Source of the DNA: Streptomyces zhihengii
GTDB taxonomy: Bacteria; Actinomycetota; Actinomycetes; Streptomycetales; Streptomycetaceae
Assembly: GCF_016919245.1 (NCBI RefSeq)
Contig: NZ_JAFEJA010000001.1
Location: 62,001 to 126,000, forward strand
Direction: 5' to 3'
DNA length: 64,000 bases
Numbering within the stretch: the first letter of the stretch is position 1; the number at the start of each line of letters is the position of its first letter. The notes beneath the pieces were generated by a model. That model saw only the letters and a program-made list of their open reading frames with translations. It did not search any database and was not told the DNA's origin. Position numbers and translations under genes: made by a program. Below are positions 44,591 through 54,707 of the stretch, piece after piece.

Positions 44591-45229
44591 GCAGGGCCCC
44601 GGCCGGCGCCGGGCGGGGCCGCACAGCGCGTCTATCGGCTCACGACGGAACGCGCGACGAGGAATCCCACGCCGTCGACCTGGTCAGCCCCCGCGGGTCG
44701 GGGCCTTCGCCACCCGGCTCGGTCCATGATCAGAAGATCCTGACGAGACCTGCCGCAGCAGCACATGCGGCCTCCGTCGCGATGCCGGCCGCGGCCCCAC
44801 CGCGCAAACGGAAGGGGACTCTGTTACTCCGTGAGGCGCGGGCGTACCCGCCCGCGGTGGCCGCCGCGGGCGGGTACGGACCCCCGCGCGGCGGCGGCCG
44901 GGGGCATCCGGCCAGGCACGATCACCCGCGGGAGCAGCGGCCGGTGCCCGCCGGGACGTGCCGGCGGGCGACCGCGGCGCGGCCCGCCGTTCGCACGCTC
45001 GCGCCCGTTCCGGAATTTCCGGCCGGGCGATGCGGCACGGCAGCGCCAGGCACCTGTCACCGGGCATTGGCGGGGCCTTTTCTTGATCGAGAACGCCATT
45101 CCAGGGACGGTATTGTGCCCCGAGAATCCCTTCGCTACGATCGCAACCCTCACCGGCCGTAAGTCCGCTCATTGCAGGGGGCGATGTGGGTGCGTCAGCG
45201 TCAGAATTACTCCCCGAGCGGGATTCTTG
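44591..45229. other. Intergenic region upstream of the RiPP-like operon
   Basis: This 639-bp gap has no gene I can support. It contains a perfect 14-bp hairpin (44844-44857 with 44864-44877, 6-nt loop). The last 150 bp are less GC-rich (for example TTTTCTTGATCGAG near 45078 and GGTATTGTG near 45108) and probably hold the promoter for the exporter-peptidase-precursor operon. Confidence 0.55.
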
Positions 45230-46504
45230 ATGGGCGAGGCCGAGGGGAAATCCGCGTCTTCCGGCCCTGAATTAGCAGAAGACGAGCGATTATCGAAAGA
45301 CTCGCCTTCTTCTCCTTTCCGAAGACGGGATTTCTCGCTCTTCTGGGCGGCGGGCGCCATCGACGGTCTCGGGACCTGTGCGTCGTCGCTCTTCCTTCCG
45401 CTGATCCTCCTGGGCGCCGGATACTCGTCCGGGCTCGCCGGCCTCGTCGCCTCGGTGGCCCTGGTCAGCGGGCTCGTCGTCTCGCCGATCGCGGGCGTGT
45501 TCGCCGACCGGTTGCCGCGCAAGCCGATGATGTACACGGCGGCCCTGGTCGCCGCGGGCGCCACGGGCACGGTGTTCGTGACGGTGGCACTCGGCCATGT
45601 CGTCCTCGTCCACGTCCTCGTCGCGGCCGTCGTCGAGCAGGCGGCGAGCGCCACCTACGGGGCGGCCGCCTCCGGGACGATCCGGCGGCTCGTGCCTCCC
45701 GGGGAGTACCCCCGGGCGATCGGGTACCTCCAGGCGCGGGACCAGGCGGTGCAGATCGTCGGGCCGACGCTGGGCGGCGTGCTCTACCAGATGGCGCGGT
45801 GGGTGCCGCTGCTCGCGGACGCGGTGTCGTTCCTGCTGGTGGCCGTGCTGAGCCGGGCGATCCGCGCGGACCTGACGCCCGAACGGGAGGGGCCCGCGGC
45901 GTCCTTCACCCGTGAGCTCGCCGAGGGCCTGCGCTTCGTGTGGGCGGAGCCGTTCCTGCGCTTCGTGGTCGTGTGGACGGCCGGGATCAACGCCCTGCTG
46001 GGAGCGCTGTACTTCCACGCGGTCTTCGCCTCGCACGCCGAGGGCGCGAGCCCTTCCTCGATCGGTCTCATCCTCACCCTCGCGGGCGTCGGCGGGCTGC
46101 TGGGCGCGCTCGCCGCGCCCTGGCTGGTGCGGCGGCTGCCGGCCACCCGGATCGTCACGGGCGCCTCGTGGGCCATGGTGCCGACGGCGGCCGGGCTCGC
46201 CTTCGCCTCCCAGACCTGGGCCTACGGGCTGCTGCTGAGCGGGGTGTCGCTGATCGTGCCGTCGGTGGCGGTCGTGCTCCAGACCCGGGCGGTGCTGGTG
46301 ACCCCCGACCGTCTGCTGGCCCGGATGGGCACGGTGCTGGGCACCGCAGGCCAGGGCGTCGCCGTGCTCGCCCCGGTGCTGGCCGGGGTGCTGGTGGCTG
46401 CGTACGGGGGCCGCTCGGTGGCGCTGGGCTGCGCCGGCGCGTTCGCCGGGCTGGCCCTGTACGCGACGGCCAGGTCCGCACTCGTCGTCCGGGAGGCGCC
46501 GTGA
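45230..46504 (+). CDS. MFS exporter of the RiPP-like locus
   Basis: A 424-aa, 12-TM MFS protein of the enterobactin-exporter/MDR type: SLFWAAGAIDGLGTCASSLF in TM1, motif A FADRLPRKPMMYTAA, GPTLGGVLYQMARWVPLLAD. A 35-residue polar N-terminus precedes TM1 and is oddly AT-rich; codons 15 and 21 are both TTA, so bldA is needed to make it. ATG at 45230. Its stop overlaps the S9 peptidase start by 4 bp. It likely exports the modified peptide. Confidence 0.87.
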   Translation: MGEAEGKSASSGPELAEDERLSKDSPSSPFRRRDFSLFWAAGAIDGLGTCASSLFLPLILLGAGYSSGLAGLVASVALVSGLVVSPIAGVFADRLPRKPMMYTAALVAAGATGTVFVTVALGHVVLVHVLVAAVVEQAASATYGAAASGTIRRLVPPGEYPRAIGYLQARDQAVQIVGPTLGGVLYQMARWVPLLADAVSFLLVAVLSRAIRADLTPEREGPAASFTRELAEGLRFVWAEPFLRFVVVWTAGINALLGALYFHAVFASHAEGASPSSIGLILTLAGVGGLLGALAAPWLVRRLPATRIVTGASWAMVPTAAGLAFASQTWAYGLLLSGVSLIVPSVAVVLQTRAVLVTPDRLLARMGTVLGTAGQGVAVLAPVLAGVLVAAYGGRSVALGCAGAFAGLALYATARSALVVREAP

Positions 46505-48330
46505 CACCGCCGGCGCCGAGAACGGCGACCCGCACCTACGGCGTCTACCGCCCGGTGCTGCCGGTGACCAGCCCCCGCAACCCGGAACGGATGGTGTACA
46601 CGGGGGACGCCGACGGCCGGTGCGAGATCTTCACCTGGGACCGGTCCAGCGGCAGCGGACGGCAGTTGACGGACCGTCCGCACGGCACGCTGCTGTGCGA
46701 CATCGACGGCGACGAGGCCGTGTGGTGGTTCGACGAGGACCGCGGCGGCAGCGGCGTCTGGCGCACCCAGGACTTCGACGGCGGCCCGGACCGTACGGCG
46801 CTGGCCGGGGTGCCGGCCGGGCGGCCCGCCGGGCTGGCGCTGACGGAACGCGGCACGGTGGCCGTCGGGATCCGCGGTGCCGGGGGATTCAGCGTGCACC
46901 TGGGGCGGCGCGGCGGCAGGGGCACCCCCGTCCTGCGCACGACGGACTCCGCCACCCTGTGCGATCTGGCGCCGGACGGCGGACTGCTGGCGGTGTCCGG
47001 GCCCGCGCACTCCGCCCGAGCCGTGACGCTGCTGACCCCGGACGGTGCCACCGCCGCGGTGCTCTCCGGCACCGCGGAACGCACCTGGGCGCTCGGTTTC
47101 GCACCCGCTGCCGCGTCGGCCTCCGGCCTCGGCGGTACGTCCGGCCGCACGCTGCTGCTGGTCATGCGCGAGCGGGCCGGGCGCTACCACCTGGGGGTCT
47201 GGACCCCGGGCGGCGGACTGGAGCTGCTGCCCTGGTGCTCGTTCGACACCGAGACGACCGCCCGCTGGTACCCCGGCCCGGGGAGTGCGCGGGTCCTGCT
47301 GCGGCAGGACCGGCACGGCCGCAGCAGGCTGTTCACCGCCGACCTGGACCGCGGCGAGCTGACCCGGGTGCCCACCCCCGAGGGCAGCATCCTGGCCGCG
47401 TCGCCCGCCGCCGGCGGCGACGTGCACCTCATCTGGACCGACGCGGTGAACGTGCCCCGCGCGATGTCCCTGTCGGGTGCGTCGCTGCCGGGGCAGAGCG
47501 AGTGGCGCCTCCCCCGGTTCGGCCACCGCCGGGACCTGTGGACCCCGGGGCCCGACGGGCCCGTGCACACCTTCGTCACCACGCCCTCGGACCGCCCCGC
47601 GCCGCACCCGCTGGTGCTGCTCGTGCACGGCGGCCCGGCCGACCACGACCGCGACGCCTACGACCCGATGGTGCAGGCCCTCGTCGGCTCGGGGTACGCC
47701 GTGGCCCGCGTCAACTACCGGGGCTCGACCGGCTACGGGCCGCGCTGGCGCTCCGCCTGGTCCGAGGGCGTCGGCCACACGCAGGTCGCCGACCTGGTGC
47801 GGGCCCGCGCCGACCTGCTGGACCGGGGCATCGGCCGAGCGGGCGCCGTGGGCCTGTGCGGCACCTCGTGGGGCGGTTATCTGACGCTGCTGGCCATGGG
47901 CACCCGTCCCGGCCTGTGGGACGTCGGGGTGGCCGTCAAGCCGCTCGCCGACTGCGCCACCGCCTTCCGGCACTCCACGCCCGCCCTCCAGGCGCTGGAC
48001 ACCTCGCTGTTCGGCGGCACTCCGGACGAGGTGCCCGACGCCTACGCGCACGCCTCCCCGTCCTCGTACGCCGCCGCGATCCGCTCCCCGCTGCTGGTCG
48101 TCGCCGCGCGGCGGGACGCCAAGTGCCCGCCGGAGCAGATCGAGGCGTACCTGGCCGTGCTGCGCGCGGGCGGTGTCCCCCACGAGGTGATGTGGCTGGA
48201 CTCGGGCCACGACGGCTACGACGGAGCCGACCACCTGGCCGTCATACGGCGGTCCCTCCAGTTTCTCGGCGGCGGGCTGCCTTCCGCGCCCGATCAGGCC
48301 GAGCCGCCCCCACCCCCGGAGAGGAGGTGA
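46501..48330 (+). CDS. S9 prolyl-oligopeptidase-type peptidase, candidate leader protease
   Basis: The 609-aa cytoplasmic protein has a beta-propeller-like N-terminal half (TDRPHGTLLCDIDGDEAVWW) and an alpha/beta-hydrolase domain from about 355. The catalytic triad is visible: GLCGTSWGGYLTLL (Ser456), RRDAKCPPEQI (Asp539) and DSGHDGYDG (His570). S9 enzymes cut short peptides, often after Pro. Start: GTG at 46501, coupled to the exporter. Only 5 bp separate its stop from the 39-aa precursor, so it probably removes the leader, perhaps after the KP just before GVGVVVYLR. Confidence 0.88.
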   Translation: MTPPAPRTATRTYGVYRPVLPVTSPRNPERMVYTGDADGRCEIFTWDRSSGSGRQLTDRPHGTLLCDIDGDEAVWWFDEDRGGSGVWRTQDFDGGPDRTALAGVPAGRPAGLALTERGTVAVGIRGAGGFSVHLGRRGGRGTPVLRTTDSATLCDLAPDGGLLAVSGPAHSARAVTLLTPDGATAAVLSGTAERTWALGFAPAAASASGLGGTSGRTLLLVMRERAGRYHLGVWTPGGGLELLPWCSFDTETTARWYPGPGSARVLLRQDRHGRSRLFTADLDRGELTRVPTPEGSILAASPAAGGDVHLIWTDAVNVPRAMSLSGASLPGQSEWRLPRFGHRRDLWTPGPDGPVHTFVTTPSDRPAPHPLVLLVHGGPADHDRDAYDPMVQALVGSGYAVARVNYRGSTGYGPRWRSAWSEGVGHTQVADLVRARADLLDRGIGRAGAVGLCGTSWGGYLTLLAMGTRPGLWDVGVAVKPLADCATAFRHSTPALQALDTSLFGGTPDEVPDAYAHASPSSYAAAIRSPLLVVAARRDAKCPPEQIEAYLAVLRAGGVPHEVMWLDSGHDGYDGADHLAVIRRSLQFLGGGLPSAPDQAEPPPPPERR

Positions 48331-48335
48331 ACATC

Positions 48336-48455
48336 ATGCAGAAGGACATCATCCACGGCGACCCGCTCGACGGCGACGAGGAGAGCCGCAAGCCCGGCGT
48401 CGGCGTCGTCGTCTACCTCCGCTCCGCGGAGGAGATGGAGGACGAGGACAAGTAG
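48336..48455 (+). CDS. Putative RiPP precursor peptide (39 aa)
   Basis: A 39-residue peptide with a strong ribosome site (GGAGGTG, 6-nt spacing), placed between the S9 peptidase and the B12 radical SAM gene. The first 20 residues are charged and end ESRKP, like a leader. They are followed by the hydrophobic segment GVGVVVYLRS (residues 21-30) and an acidic tail (AEEMEDEDK). The Val triplet followed by an aromatic recalls the C-methylated VVVF of bottromycin, though no other bottromycin genes are here. Valine beta-carbons are plausible radical SAM methylation sites. The core boundaries are inferred. Confidence 0.75.
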   Translation: MQKDIIHGDPLDGDEESRKPGVGVVVYLRSAEEMEDEDK

Positions 48456-48602
48456 CGGCCAGGGCCTTTCGTCCGGATCAGGGCACGCGAGCCCGCCGGG
48501 ATCCGCACGCGAGGCCCCAGGGGCCGGTCCGCATCCGTGCGCGGCCGGCCCCCATCCGGACGGAATCCCGGCCGGACTCCCGGCCGGCGTCCGGTCACGG
48601 GG

Positions 48603-48634
48603 GTCGTCGGGCGCCCTGCCCGGCGCCCGGCGAC
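48603..48634 (+). other. Hairpin between precursor and radical SAM gene
   Basis: GTCGTCGGGCGCC (48603-48615) pairs with GGCGCCCGGCGAC (48622-48634) with one G-U pair, inside the 242-bp gap. A partial terminator here would raise precursor mRNA over maturase mRNA, as often seen in RiPP operons. The gap shows no other gene. Confidence 0.45.
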
Positions 48635-48697
48635 TTCCCGGCCGATGCCCGACCGACACGTCATTCCGTGCACTGATCACATGAGAAGAGGCGAGCC

Positions 48698-50599
48698 GTG
48701 CGCGTACTCCTGGTGAACATGCCCTGGGCCCCGATCGATCTCCCGTCGCTGGCTCTCGGAATTCTCAAGCGCAGTGTCGACGAGCGCGTGCCGAACGCCA
48801 CGGCGGACGTTCTGCACGCGAATATTGAATACGTGGACTGGATCACCAGGAACACGGAATTCACTTTGGAGGACTACTCCTACTACGCGCTCGGCTCCTA
48901 TTTTCTGGGATGCGGCGACTGGGTCTTCTCCTCCGCGCTCTACGACGATCCCGCATGGCGTGTGCCCGAGTTCACCGAGGCGATGGCCAACCGGGTGCGC
49001 GGGGCCCGCATGGAGATGACACAGGCACTGCACGTCACCGCGCCCGACTTCGTCCGGCACATCGCGGAACGCATCGTGGAACTCGCCCCGGACGTCGTCG
49101 GGTTCACCTCGACGTTCCAGCAGAACACCGCGGCCCTGGCGGCCGCCAAGTACGTCAAGCGGCTCGCGCCGCACATCGTGACGGCCATGGGCGGCGCCAA
49201 CTGCGACGGCAAGCAGGGCGAGGCCGTACACCGCAACTTCCCCTTCGTCGACCATGTGCTGCGCGGCGAGGGCGAGGTCTCGTTCCCCGCGCTGGTCAGG
49301 GCACTGGACGCCGGTGAGCCGCTGTCGGAGATCCCCGGGCTGTGCTGGCGCGACACGGACGGCACCTCCGTGGTGAACGCCATGAACACCAAGCCGCTGC
49401 CGCCCGCCGCCATCCTGCCGCCGGACTACGCCGGGTACTTCGAGCGGCTCGCCTCCTCCCACGCCCGGAACTGGGTCGAGCCGAAGCTGGTCGTCGAGGG
49501 CGCGCGGGGCTGCTGGTGGGGCGAGAAGCACCACTGCACCTTCTGCGGGCTGAACGGCTCGTTCATGGAGTTCCGCAGCAAGAGCCCCGACGTGTTCTAC
49601 GACGAGATCATGGAACTGGCGCGCAGGCACCGGGTCCTGGACATGTACGTCGTGGACAACATTCTGGACATGGGGTACGTGAAGTCGGTGCTGCCCCGCA
49701 TCATCGACAGCGGGTACGACCTGCGGATGCACATCGAGATCAAGTCCAACATGCGGCGGGGACAGCTCCAGACGCTGGCGGACGCGGGGCTGATCTTCGT
49801 CCAGCCGGGCATCGAGAGTCTCAACAGCCGGGTGCTGACCCTGATGGACAAGGGTGTGACCGGCGGCCAGAACGTGCGGATGCTCCGCGACGCGGCCACC
49901 GTCGGCCTCTCGGTCGCCTGGAACTACCTGCACGGCTTCCCGGGCGAGGACACCGAGGACTACGACGACGTGGTGGACCAGCTCGCCGCGCTGGAGCACC
50001 TGAACCCGCCCGTGGGCCCCTCCTCCCGGATCGCGATCGAGCGGTTCAGCCCGTACTTCAACGACCCCGGCCTCGGCTTCTCCGAGCTGCGCCCCGCCGA
50101 GCCGTACCGGCTCACCTACGACCTCCCCGACGCCGAGATGTTCGACCTGGCGTACGTCTTCGACGTACCGCCCCGGGGAATCGGCGAGGACGTCGTCGCC
50201 CGGCTCGACGAGGGCATCGGGCACTGGAAGCGGAACTACGCCGGCAGCCGCCTCACCCACTGCGACCTGGAGGACCGGATCGTCCTGGTCAGCAGGCGAC
50301 GGGCCTTCGACTGGACGCGCCTGGAGCTGACCGACCCGGGCGAACTGGCCCTGTTCCGGCTGCTCGACCAGCCGCACACGGTGAAGGCGGCCGCGCGCAA
50401 GCTGGAGGCGGACCACCACTTCGGCGAGGCCGCCCTGCTCGGGGTCCTGAAGCGGTGGCGGGAGCTCGGCATCGTCTTCGAGGACAGCGGGCAGTTCGTG
50501 CAGATCGCGCCGCCGGCCCTGAACGAGGAGTTCCTGCGGATCGACTTCATGCGGCACACCGCCGCCCGCGAGGCCGAACTCGCCCCGACGACCGTCTGA
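48698..50599 (+). CDS. B12-binding radical SAM RiPP C-methyltransferase-like enzyme
   Basis: The 633-aa protein has an N-terminal cobalamin-binding domain (about 1-220: VGFTSTFQQNTAALAAAKYV, FVDHVLRGEGEVSFPAL), then a radical SAM barrel with a Cx7CxxC cluster motif in GARGCWWGEKHHCTFCGLNG (about residues 268-287), and a winged C-terminal part (about 540-610). The CWW...CTFCGLNG wording is that of the RiPP-maturation radical SAM protein 1 group (TIGR03975, from memory), predicted C-methyltransferases. GTG at 48698. It should act on the 39-aa peptide upstream. DUF5825 follows at 32 bp. Confidence 0.9.
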   Translation: MRVLLVNMPWAPIDLPSLALGILKRSVDERVPNATADVLHANIEYVDWITRNTEFTLEDYSYYALGSYFLGCGDWVFSSALYDDPAWRVPEFTEAMANRVRGARMEMTQALHVTAPDFVRHIAERIVELAPDVVGFTSTFQQNTAALAAAKYVKRLAPHIVTAMGGANCDGKQGEAVHRNFPFVDHVLRGEGEVSFPALVRALDAGEPLSEIPGLCWRDTDGTSVVNAMNTKPLPPAAILPPDYAGYFERLASSHARNWVEPKLVVEGARGCWWGEKHHCTFCGLNGSFMEFRSKSPDVFYDEIMELARRHRVLDMYVVDNILDMGYVKSVLPRIIDSGYDLRMHIEIKSNMRRGQLQTLADAGLIFVQPGIESLNSRVLTLMDKGVTGGQNVRMLRDAATVGLSVAWNYLHGFPGEDTEDYDDVVDQLAALEHLNPPVGPSSRIAIERFSPYFNDPGLGFSELRPAEPYRLTYDLPDAEMFDLAYVFDVPPRGIGEDVVARLDEGIGHWKRNYAGSRLTHCDLEDRIVLVSRRRAFDWTRLELTDPGELALFRLLDQPHTVKAAARKLEADHHFGEAALLGVLKRWRELGIVFEDSGQFVQIAPPALNEEFLRIDFMRHTAAREAELAPTTV

Positions 50600-50631
50600 C
50601 GACCGCGCGACCGCCCGACCGAGGGACGACG

Positions 50632-51291
50632 ATGACTCCTGTTCTCACCGGCACCGCCCCCTTCACCGTGACCGCCTCACGGGACTACGACCCCGAGGTG
50701 GGCACCCTGCCCGCCATGTCCCTGGGCCGCTTCGAGATCGACATGTCCGGCGGCGAGGCCGCCCGGCGGCTGTTCGCCGCCGGGGCCCGGCACGTCACCC
50801 TGCCCCGCCCCGTGGACCTGACGGACACCGCCGACGCGGCCTGGACGGTCAGGGCGCTGAGCTTCGTGGGCGACCTCTCCAGCCTGGCCGTCTCGGTCGA
50901 CTGGCAGATCCACACCGGCTCCGACCCGGACGCCTGGCGCCACTTCGGGCACCTCCACCCCCCGACCGCCGTCCTCGGCACCGCGGACCCGGTGGCGACG
51001 GCGCTCGCCTGGCGCACCACGTACTACATCTGCAAGTGCATCTTCCGGTACGGCCCCGGGTTCATCCAGGTCCGCGACCGGCGCTACGGGGAGCTGCGCC
51101 GCTTCACCATCGACGAACCGGAGTGCCACGAGGCCGTCGCGGCCCTCACCGACGGCGCGACCGTCGACGCGATCGGGCGTCCGATCCTGGACGACCTCAT
51201 GGCGGAGACCCTCGTCCTGCGCTTCGGCGACCACCTGTGGTGGGCGCCGTACCGGGTGCGCCGCTGGTCGGAGGCACCGCTGGTGATCTGA
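50632..51291 (+). CDS. DUF5825 family protein
   Basis: A 219-aa protein beginning MTPVLTGTAPFTVTASRDY, with VDWQIHTGSDPDAWRHFGHLH, FRYGPGFIQVRDRRYGELRR and FGDHLWWAPYRVRRWSEAP. I recall DUF5825 as the constant partner of this radical SAM group; its role (peptide recognition, scaffold or second modification) is not known to me. No signal or membrane segment. GAGGGA precedes the ATG. It is the last gene of the unit, followed by a terminator. Confidence 0.8.
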   Translation: MTPVLTGTAPFTVTASRDYDPEVGTLPAMSLGRFEIDMSGGEAARRLFAAGARHVTLPRPVDLTDTADAAWTVRALSFVGDLSSLAVSVDWQIHTGSDPDAWRHFGHLHPPTAVLGTADPVATALAWRTTYYICKCIFRYGPGFIQVRDRRYGELRRFTIDEPECHEAVAALTDGATVDAIGRPILDDLMAETLVLRFGDHLWWAPYRVRRWSEAPLVI

Positions 51292-51302
51292 GCCGGTGAT
51301 CG

Positions 51303-51339
51303 CCGAGGCCCCGCGGAGAGTCGTCCCGCGGGGCCTCGG
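51303..51339 (+). terminator. Terminator of the RiPP-like operon
   Basis: A 14-bp perfect stem (CCGAGGCCCCGCGG at 51303-51316, complement at 51326-51339, 9-nt loop) begins 11 bp after the DUF5825 stop. Confidence 0.82.
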
Positions 51340-51533
51340 GCATGTCCGCTCCCGGGTCGCGCACGGTCCGGGTGCCCGGCGGCGCACGGTTCTCCGGCGG
51401 CGTGCGGGAGTGCCCCGCTCCCCCGTCATTGGGTCGACAAATGGCGGAACCCAGGCCTGGTTGACGCGCGTTGACAAGCGGCACCACACTCGCGCAGGTA
51501 CATGACAAACGACTCGCGAGAGGGGCACCGCCC

Positions 51534-52649: not shown

Positions 52650-52847
52650 ACGGTCCGGTCCGGCCGGCGGCGCAGCGGACGAGGTGAGTCCCGGCGCGCG
52701 GGCCGCGTGCACCCGGGGCACGGACCGGCCTCCCGCAGGCGCGAGGCCGGTTCTCCTGCCCCTGGTGTTGCCCTCCAGGCCCTTCCCCTGCGCGGGCGCG
52801 CCGGACCAGGGTCTCTTCGAGGCCGTACCACCGTCGAGGGAGCACTC

Positions 52848-54707
52848 ATGCGTGCGCAGGGCACCGGCAAGGAGCAGGACGGCGGGACCGGACCGGCGGG
52901 ACGCCGGCCGGCCCAGGTACCCGGGTGGGCCTCCCAGATCCTGACGCTCCAGCGGCTCGCCGGGAACGAGGCCCTCTCGCGCGCGGTCGCCGCCTCCCGG
53001 CACCGGCACGGGCCCGGCTGCGGACACGGGCAGCCCGCGGTGCAGCGCAGCGCGGATACCGACCGGCACCGGCACGGTCCCGGGTGCGGGCACACGCAGC
53101 CCGCGGTGCAGCGCAGCGCGGACACCGACCGGCATCAGCACGGTGCCGGATGCGGACACGAGGAGACGCCCGTGCAGCGCCGGGTGTCCCCCGGCGAAGC
53201 GATCTCCACTCCGGGCAGGCCGCTCCCCTCGCGCATCGTCGAGCGCCTGGAGCAGGAATACCCGATGAAGTTCGGCCATGTCCGTTTTCACGACAACGCC
53301 GTCGCGCAGCGTTCGGCGGCCGACCACGGTGCCGAGGTGTACACCACCGGCTCGCACATCGTCAGCAGCCGGTCGAGTCTCGACGACGAGACCATGTTCC
53401 ACGAGGGCGGGCACGTCTGGCAGCAGGCCAACACGCAGGTGGCCGGCACCGACGACGGGACGGGGACGAAGGTCTCCAGTCCTCGCGACCCCTTCGAGGT
53501 CCAGGCGGCCGAGAACGGCCGGCGGATGAAGCTGGGGCAGGCCCCCGATCTGACGCTCCCCGGCGCTTCCGCCGCCGCGGGCGGTGTGCAGCGCGCGGTC
53601 GCGGCGCCCTCCGCACACGTCCAGCGAGCGCCGGGCAACACGGCCACCGCTCCCGCACCCGCGCCGCAGACCGGTCTGCCGCCGGACCTCAACGCGGCGC
53701 TCGGCAGGGAGATCCCGGACTACTGGAACACCCTGCAGTGGACGGACAGCGGCCGGGGCTACCACACGGCATCGCTGCACCCCGGGCACCCGGTGTGGAC
53801 AGCCATCGAGAACTACGCCCGCCTCTCCCAGGAGCGCGCGCCCGTGACGGCGCCGAAGGCCGAGGCGACCCGGATGGCCGAGTCCCAGAAGCGGCTCAAC
53901 GACCCGAACATCACCGATGAGCAGCGCGCGTCCCACACCCGCCGCCTCCAGGAGGGCAAGGCGGGCGGACCGCCGCCGCCCAGCAGCGCCCTGATGGACA
54001 TCGTGGAGATCGTCGTCTGCGCCAACCCCACACTGTGGGAGAAGTACACGACGAACCGGCAGATGTACCACCAGTCGCTGATCTCGCACAAGAAGCAGGG
54101 CCTGGAGGCGTCCGGCAAGGACCGCAGTGAGCGGATCCCCTGGTCCACCGGCGGCAGGCCCAACCTCGGCGGAGCGGCGTCAACGTCGATCCAGCCGGGC
54201 TACCCCCGCCCCGACCAGCTGCCGCCCAGCGTGGCGCAGGACGCCGGCGAGGCGTTCTTCTGGCACGGCACCAGCCCCCAGGTCATGGACCTGATCGACG
54301 AGAACGGCCCGAGGCCCGATCTGGGCCGCAACAAGGGCACCGCGGACAAGCCGCAGTACGGGGTGCTGGGCCAGGGCACCTATGTCGCCGACAACGCCTC
54401 CAAGGCACAGACGTACTTCGCCTGCCCCCAGTGCGAGGACCCCGAGTGCACGGACGCGACGCACCCGCCGCGGCAGATGATGCTGATGCGAGGACTCATC
54501 GGCTCGCCCAACTTCGCGCACCTCGGGCAGAACCGGCGCGGCGAGGACCACAAGACGCTGAAGGACGGCAGCACCTCCGTGGTGAGCCCGGGCCTCAAGA
54601 AGAACCCGGCACGGCTCGGCGCGACCGGTACCAACGAGTTCCTCATCAAGGACAAGTCGCTGCTCTACCCCGAGATCCGGGTCCACTACCGGCGGTCCGC
54701 CTCCTGA
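52848..54707 (+). CDS. DUF4157 protein with C-terminal PARP-like ADP-ribosyltransferase domain
   Basis: A 619-aa protein without signal peptide. After LQRLAGNEALSRAV come three 22-residue repeats with HxHGPGCGH. A DUF4157 domain follows (about 120-215) with an HExxH site in MFHEGGHVWQQANTQ (His185-His189). A linker leads to a C-terminal domain (about 460-619) with the PARP H-Y-E pattern: FFWHGTSPQVMDLIDENG (His473), GQGTYVADNASKAQTYF (Tyr512) and GTNEFLIKDKSLLYPEIRV (Glu597). DUF4157 marks cargo of extracellular contractile injection systems, so this is a candidate ADP-ribosylating effector. No eCIS structural genes are in the window. ATG has GAGGGAG upstream. Confidence 0.82.
   Translation: MRAQGTGKEQDGGTGPAGRRPAQVPGWASQILTLQRLAGNEALSRAVAASRHRHGPGCGHGQPAVQRSADTDRHRHGPGCGHTQPAVQRSADTDRHQHGAGCGHEETPVQRRVSPGEAISTPGRPLPSRIVERLEQEYPMKFGHVRFHDNAVAQRSAADHGAEVYTTGSHIVSSRSSLDDETMFHEGGHVWQQANTQVAGTDDGTGTKVSSPRDPFEVQAAENGRRMKLGQAPDLTLPGASAAAGGVQRAVAAPSAHVQRAPGNTATAPAPAPQTGLPPDLNAALGREIPDYWNTLQWTDSGRGYHTASLHPGHPVWTAIENYARLSQERAPVTAPKAEATRMAESQKRLNDPNITDEQRASHTRRLQEGKAGGPPPPSSALMDIVEIVVCANPTLWEKYTTNRQMYHQSLISHKKQGLEASGKDRSERIPWSTGGRPNLGGAASTSIQPGYPRPDQLPPSVAQDAGEAFFWHGTSPQVMDLIDENGPRPDLGRNKGTADKPQYGVLGQGTYVADNASKAQTYFACPQCEDPECTDATHPPRQMMLMRGLIGSPNFAHLGQNRRGEDHKTLKDGSTSVVSPGLKKNPARLGATGTNEFLIKDKSLLYPEIRVHYRRSAS
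52998..53195 (+). repeat. Three 66-bp in-frame repeats (Cys/His motif)
   Basis: Units at 52998, 53064 and 53130 each encode 22 residues centred on RHxHGxGCGH; units 1 and 2 are nearly identical, unit 3 diverges after the motif. The His/Cys spacing could bind metal. A PVQR/AVQR motif ends each unit. Confidence 0.9.

Follow-up and report, generated by a model that had tools for sequence, protein, structure and literature searches.

A clavusporin-type peptide operon of a distinct core clade in Streptomyces zhihengii and the likely kinship of its DUF5825 protein with B12 radical SAM methyltransferases

Introduction

What does a compact biosynthetic locus of Streptomyces zhihengii make, and what is the part of the DUF5825 protein that accompanies its cobalamin (B12)-dependent radical S-adenosylmethionine (SAM) enzyme? 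The locus lies at positions 45,230 to 51,291 of the 64,000-nucleotide stretch analyzed here (the window; NCBI RefSeq assembly GCF_016919245.1, contig NZ_JAFEJA010000001.1, positions 62,001 to 126,000, forward strand), and an earlier note, made from the letters of the DNA, had read it as an operon for a ribosomally synthesized and post-translationally modified peptide (RiPP). With a probability of roughly 0.8, we read it as a clavusporin-type operon of a distinct core clade, in which the radical SAM enzyme and DUF5825, a probable "headless" paralogue of the same enzyme family, would work as a two-chain C-methyltransferase.

Organization and conservation of the operon

All five reading frames of the earlier note were recovered at the positions it gave. 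The features of the locus are as follows, all on the plus strand.

45071-45229, +: putative upstream control region, conserved across the clade of the window and containing a candidate promoter
45230-46504, +: major facilitator superfamily (MFS) exporter gene (PF07690, MFS_1, 97 bits), with TTA at codons 15 and 21
46501-48330, +: S9 (prolyl oligopeptidase family) protease gene (Peptidase_S9, PF00326, 110.8 bits), probable leader peptidase
48336-48455, +: precursor peptide gene (39 amino acids, conserved family), with the ribosome site AGGAGGTG in front
48456-48697, +: structured spacer from the precursor to the radical SAM gene, by minimum free energy (MFE) z values; putative function
48698-50599, +: B12 radical SAM C-methyltransferase gene (TIGR03975, 589.6 bits; Cys272, Cys280 and Cys283)
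50632-51291, +: DUF5825 gene (PF19142, 234.9 bits; predicted model with a mean predicted local distance difference test score of 91.8)
51303-51339, +: terminator-like hairpin with a perfect 14-bp G+C-rich stem and without a T run, from inverted repeat and fold energy

The exporter and protease genes overlap by 4 bases, and the following gaps measure 5 bases from protease to precursor, 242 from precursor to radical SAM gene and 32 from there to DUF5825. Nucleotide similarity to eight close named relatives (L038 being left out of the border comparison) starts at 44793-45311 and stops at 51291-51346, and in the flanks compared, about 2-3 kb upstream and up to 8 kb downstream, the matches amounted to two short pieces in L032 only. 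Because similarity ends almost exactly at its borders, the five-gene operon is considered a conserved unit. The terminator that the earlier note placed at the end of the unit corresponds to the terminator-like hairpin (-41.9 kcal/mol and z -4.74 for the fold of 51292-51350), which has no T run and was not listed by a terminator scan requiring one. The two halves of the spacer gave MFE z values of -4.07 and -3.43, and a z of at most -2 was obtained for the corresponding spacer in 12 of 16 loci tested, its length varying among relatives; it is possibly an attenuator raising the precursor over the enzyme.

DUF5825 occurs in 91 of the 392 Streptomyces genomes sampled (90 above the family cut-off) and in 16 of the 394 genomes of the class (15 above it). 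Out of 102 listed DUF5825 places, 80 were fetched with upstream DNA, best-scoring first, and 10 named loci were added; the other 22 were the window's own, second copies, partial or weak. Contig ends cut L051, L072, L089 and L096, and some of the named loci evidently come from the same strains as fetched ones. Of the 80 fetched regions, 79 contain a homologous radical SAM gene, the exception being L089 at its contig end. The earlier note had staked its reading on conservation of the precursor frame beside such genes, and a precursor of the same family indeed stands just upstream of the radical SAM gene in 50 of the 80 fetched regions and in nine of the ten named loci. The sequence-based checks it proposed, co-occurrence of the five genes and alignment of the precursors, likewise came out in its favor, with all five genes in order in 46 of the 80 fetched regions and an alignment of 60 rows, including the window, that holds 42 distinct peptides.

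Core clade and relationship with the clavusporins

The window precursor, which matched no family in the domain scans, consists of a 20-residue leader ending in RKP (MQKDIIHGDPLDGDEESRKP), the core GVGVVVYLRS and an acidic tail. Leader positions 3, 4, 10, 11 and 18 are invariant among 43 distinct precursors. In the window's clade, which comprises eight distinct peptides, the core reads GVGVV(V/I)Y(L/F)RS, always with Tyr27, whereas 23 of the other 35 have (G/S)(I/V)GIT(V/I)T(V/I)PF and none of the 35 has a Tyr. In a tree of the radical SAM enzymes, built without L109-L111, loci lacking either gene and identical enzymes, the 11 rows carrying the core of the window group on a single branch with a Shimodaira-Hasegawa-like approximate likelihood ratio test (SH-aLRT) support of 100. 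Nearest to this branch are L066, with a precursor lacking Pro ahead of the core, as well as L084 and L088, which have MEKD..NDPL precursors and neither protease nor exporter by similarity search.

The clavusporins, C-methylated peptide surfactants from the mpc operon with a link to development, were reportedly described by Zhang, Li, Overton and Seyedsayamdost (Nat Chem Biol 2025). The earlier note knew of no isolated product for this gene set, a statement that does not hold: according to the passages of two papers that were available, clavusporins are made by a homologous pair of B12 radical SAM enzyme and DUF5825, which C-methylates (PMC12257519), and their leader is taken off by MpcP, a prolyl oligopeptidase (PMC12951456), so that the mpc operon, as described in those passages, and the window are alike in the enzyme pair and in a prolyl oligopeptidase for the leader. 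On pSCL4 of S. clavuligerus, genes for an MFS protein, a hydrolase, a radical SAM enzyme and DUF5825 stand in the same order as in the window, together with an unannotated precursor, MQKDVIHNDPLAGDEENRKPSVGITITVPFRNAEDADED. We take this species to be the clavusporin producer, which fits the name. S. clavuligerus and the window share the five genes, their order and the leader family, as seen in shared leader positions. However, the window core lacks the alternating Thr and the PFRN end of SVGITITVPFRN in S. clavuligerus and does not conform to the core type (G/S)(I/V)GIT(V/I)T(V/I)PF of that species; identity is 42% for DUF5825 against 71% for the radical SAM enzyme, and the spacer between precursor and radical SAM gene is 242 bases long as compared with 69. 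Since the core differs and belongs to a separate clade, the window peptide would be a variant, not clavusporin itself, and the operon is judged from its sequence to be a RiPP operon of clavusporin type with a core clade of its own. The outline drawn by the earlier note is supported, namely a single RiPP operon that couples a B12 radical SAM C-methyltransferase with a dedicated S9 protease and has a Val-rich core after KP.

Its proposal of a Pro site for the S9 enzyme fared less evenly. Pro20 is found in 41 of the 43 distinct precursors, but it is not universal, Val standing before the core in L066 (ENRAV...) and L083 (ESRHV...), where the S9 gene is present; Arg18, in turn, is found in all 43. 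The cleavage site of the leader is therefore uncertain between the two positions. The window protease has a putative triad of Ser456, Asp539 and His570, located by motif, and its nearest sequences in the PDB are acylamino-acid-releasing enzymes (E 2e-26), ahead of prolyl oligopeptidases. This relationship, together with the invariant Arg18 and the two operons that keep the protease without Pro20, favors an alternative in which the S9 protein is an aminopeptidase or acylaminoacyl peptidase serving trimming or immunity, with another factor cutting after Arg18. Given the near-constant Pro20 and the reported removal of the clavusporin leader by MpcP in the passages of PMC12951456, we consider this alternative unlikely, and the S9 protein remains for us the probable leader peptidase.

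Homology of DUF5825 with the C-terminal part of TIGR03975 enzymes

In the window, DUF5825 matches Pfam PF19142 alone and has neither a cobalamin domain nor a three-Cys motif, and its origin is not stated in the passages of PMC12257519 that were available. With hhalign, an alignment built from 118 DUF5825 proteins was set against radical SAM enzyme profiles, among them those of 14 TIGR03975 proteins without an adjacent DUF5825 (hereafter partnerless) from actinobacteria, Bacillota and Pseudomonadota. From an initial partnerless set of 15, L188 was dropped as its DUF5825 status was unsure, L150 gave no frame, and two control proteins of at least 600 residues were excluded, leaving 23. Seven of the 14 partnerless proteins are from six genomes without a DUF5825 match; for the other seven, no DUF5825 is annotated adjacent, and they come from plasmid records outside the 19 DUF5825-matching ones, their chromosomes not having been searched.

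DUF5825 scored about 48.2-48.3 against its partner enzymes (reversed controls 14.6 and 14.3) and 81.1, with a probability of 96.9, against the partnerless enzymes. In the latter alignment, DUF5825 residues 40-216 correspond to enzyme residues 355-625, colinear with the C-terminal 40% of the enzyme. The scores against other B12 radical SAM families, the protease and the MFS protein were 16.7, 19.3 and 12.8, and the maxima of 200 column shuffles were 24.8 against the partnerless and 29.99 against the partner enzymes. With six non-actinobacterial enzymes alone, the score was 58.8, and with five alternative master sequences it was 68.8 to 83.7. Among the aligned DUF5825 columns that are at least 90% conserved, 13 of 30 have the same residue (at least 70%) in the partnerless enzymes, as compared with 6 of 145 other columns; the shared residues include Trp91, His107-Leu108-x-Pro110-Pro111, Trp127, Asp149, Arg151 and Pro206 of DUF5825. 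The predicted secondary structures of the C-terminal domains run in the same order, with strands 136-141, 144-149, 156-160, 195-198 and 201-204 and helices 163-172 and 183-191 in the DUF5825 model, and strands 519-523, 528-532, 541-544, 593-596 and 599-602 and helices 547-555, 562-570 and 577-589 in that of the enzyme, whose middle helix is reduced in DUF5825 and whose model is weak in the barrel. The public TIGR03975 model, a less sensitive tool than profile-profile comparison, matched none of 43 single DUF5825 proteins at E 1, although homology does not require a match of this sort.

Taken together, profile comparison indicates that DUF5825 is homologous to, and colinear with, the C-terminal part of TIGR03975 enzymes, as a "headless" paralogue would be. 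An alternative is that DUF5825 is an unrelated leader-binding adaptor of the RiPP recognition element (RRE) type, sharing only a winged helix with the C-terminus of the radical SAM enzyme. This appears improbable, since the N-terminal part of DUF5825, outside the winged helix, matches the partnerless enzymes by itself with a score of 49.1 (48.5 for the C-terminal part alone), at colinear places and with the common W and HLxPP columns. All 15 genomes of the class sample with DUF5825 over the cut-off have TIGR03975, which six more genomes have alone, as expected if DUF5825 derives from and depends on the enzyme. The C-terminal domain of DUF5825 matches the partnerless enzymes (48.2) and not its own partners (15.1), whereas that of the partner enzymes still scores 98.7 against the partnerless ones. 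This divergence between DUF5825 and its partners may reflect a division of labor after duplication.

Radical SAM enzyme and predicted chemistry on the core

The window enzyme scored 589.6 bits against TIGR03975, as compared with a curated cut-off of 281.85, and contains B12-binding and Radical_SAM domains. The Cys residues of its motif C272-x7-C280-xx-C283 are all invariant in a 52-row alignment. TokK acts on a carbapenem, not a peptide, and to our knowledge works without DUF5825. This solved B12 radical SAM methyltransferase (7kdx) matches the window enzyme in sequence over residues 106-429 (E 7.9e-12). The TIGR03975 enzymes without an adjacent DUF5825, of pheganomycin type (L187), Nif11 type (L183 and L185) and NHLP type (L182), are full-length members of the same family (score 1223), but differ from the window in having no DUF5825 annotated beside them and in their precursors.

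By analogy with the clavusporins, C-methylation of valines in the window core is plausible. The computed [M+2H]2+ of the unmodified core GVGVVVYLRSAEEMEDEDK is 1063.010, and with one to four methyls it would be 1070.017, 1077.025, 1084.033 and 1091.041. The enzyme might instead carry out non-methylation chemistry, such as cross-linking of Tyr27 or epimerization. In favor of this, Tyr27 is specific to the window's clade, and a B12 radical SAM enzyme cross-links ortho-tyrosines in biphenomycin-like peptides, according to the passages of PMC12257519. However, the window core has one Tyr only, the enzyme belongs with high score to a family named for C-methylation, its identity to that of S. clavuligerus is 71%, and C-methylation is what the same passages report for the paired DUF5825 system, all of which makes a different chemistry quite improbable and valine methylation the preferred reading.

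The biphenomycin-like clusters, in the same description, have YHxYxY precursors and a second B12 radical SAM enzyme with DUF5825 beside the core genes; they differ from the window in an unrelated precursor, in chemistry by a multinuclear non-heme iron-dependent oxidative enzyme (MNIO) and in the ortho-Tyr cross-link (PMC12257519). Three DUF5825 loci of our sample, L102-L104, resemble these clusters as described there, having a precursor-like YHTYTY frame and, upstream, a second radical SAM-like region.

Genome-wide distribution of the precursor family

A genome-wide search with the precursor alignment found a match in 54 of the 392 Streptomyces genomes, all within the 91 with DUF5825, and in none of the 301 genomes without it. 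The association, assessed by Fisher test, is partly enriched by construction because the alignment was built from DUF5825 neighborhoods, which does not apply to the absence elsewhere. In the window's clade (9 distinct sequences from 10 loci, 38 compared codons), 3 first, 2 second and 13 third codon positions are variable, and the ratio of nonsynonymous to synonymous substitution rates (dN/dS) is about 0.29. That the 39-residue frame occurs by chance or encodes a regulatory leader rather than a substrate can practically be dismissed: it is short, and its S. clavuligerus counterpart is unannotated, but the gene table of that plasmid is incomplete, and the frame has its 60-row family confined to DUF5825 genomes, invariant leader positions, mostly third-position changes and a strong ribosome site.

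Further DUF5825 loci carry other small frames. L106-L108 have short frames that look like precursors (MEKTVVxNDPQ... type), with two each in L107 and L108, and no protease or exporter by similarity. In L097 and L100, DUF5825 is accompanied by MFS and S9 genes; the precursor-like frame there, MRKAVVHNDPLDLKNQ(S/T)RANRPI(I/V)VIIVSS, has no acidic tail. In the distant DUF5825/radical SAM pairs of L112-L116, a small basic frame ending in RRPA(I/V)LEKRPTR lies ahead, possibly representing a different precursor class.

Putative regulation by bldA

TTA codons in Streptomyces are read by the bldA tRNA. Among 52 distinct loci, TTA accounts for 37 of the 1560 codons that make up the first 30 of each exporter gene, with start codons chosen by script, as compared with 23 of 101515 in the remainder of the five genes, and 23 of the 52 loci have it within this initial stretch. 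The Fisher value of this enrichment overstates the evidence because the loci are related. In the window's clade, each of the 17 rows, some being of the same strains, has at least one TTA in this initial stretch of the exporter gene, and the annotated exporter of S. clavuligerus has TTA at codon 8; in the roughly called genes of the window overall, TTA makes up 9 of 16534 codons. The start of the window's exporter gene is rich in A+T, with a third-position A+T of 0.47 as compared with 0.05 for the remainder, and this accounts for part of the enrichment. These codon counts suggest that the operon is under bldA control via the exporter TTA codons. Upstream, a candidate promoter consists of TTGTGC (45113-45118), a 17-base spacer and TACGAT (45136-45141), and it ends 88 bases before the start codon. 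TTGTG and TACG(A/C)T are kept in the 11 aligned rows of the clade, L066, the twelfth row of the alignment, having TTGCG; a consensus promoter scan listed none in 45071-45229.

Elsewhere in the window, the protein encoded at 52842-54707 (+) looks like a cargo of an extracellular contractile injection system: its N-terminal third contains an eCIS_core domain (45.9 bits), and near its C-terminus there is a match, below threshold, to poly(ADP-ribose) polymerase (PARP)-like proteins (20.4 bits, cut-off 26.7).

Discussion

In the mechanism we propose, whose order draws on the clavusporin passages available and on general knowledge of B12 radical SAM enzymes, the maturase would bind the precursor leader, and the B12 radical SAM enzyme with DUF5825 would methylate unactivated carbons of the core, at Val22, Val24-26 and perhaps Leu28. 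The S9 protease would then cut off the leader close to Arg18-Lys19-Pro20, and export would fall to the MFS protein. The product would be amphiphilic, greasy at its N-terminus and acidic at its C-terminus, and is probably surface-active and used in development. DUF5825, devoid of the cobalamin domain and Cys motif, is predicted to keep the last barrel strands, the W...HLxPP residues and a winged-helix, RRE-like C-terminal domain, and may supply substrate handling in trans, giving a two-chain methyltransferase. Of this picture, the layout of the locus, its conservation, the core clade and the homology of DUF5825 are seen in the sequences, and methylation, the place of cleavage, export, surface activity and the sharing of tasks between the two chains are predictions.

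A fuller version of this proposal is put forward tentatively, as one that we hold to be slightly more doubtful than not: DUF5825 would be a duplicated and beheaded TIGR03975 protein, forming with its partner an obligate two-chain enzyme that keeps in DUF5825 the ancestral substrate-binding half (W, HLxPP, R-GPG...D-R) diverged in the partner and performs iterative C-methylation of several Val within a single core, and the bldA-controlled operon of the window's clade would yield a multiply methylated, Val-rich surfactant other than clavusporin.

Peptide C-methylation at unactivated positions is a rare chemistry. A DUF5825 protein that is a headless paralogue of its partner would make this pair a testable two-chain enzyme, with likely places of substrate contact and single-chain relatives to compare it with, and the GVGVVVYLRS clade would provide a simple Val-rich substrate on which iteration and site choice may be counted by mass.

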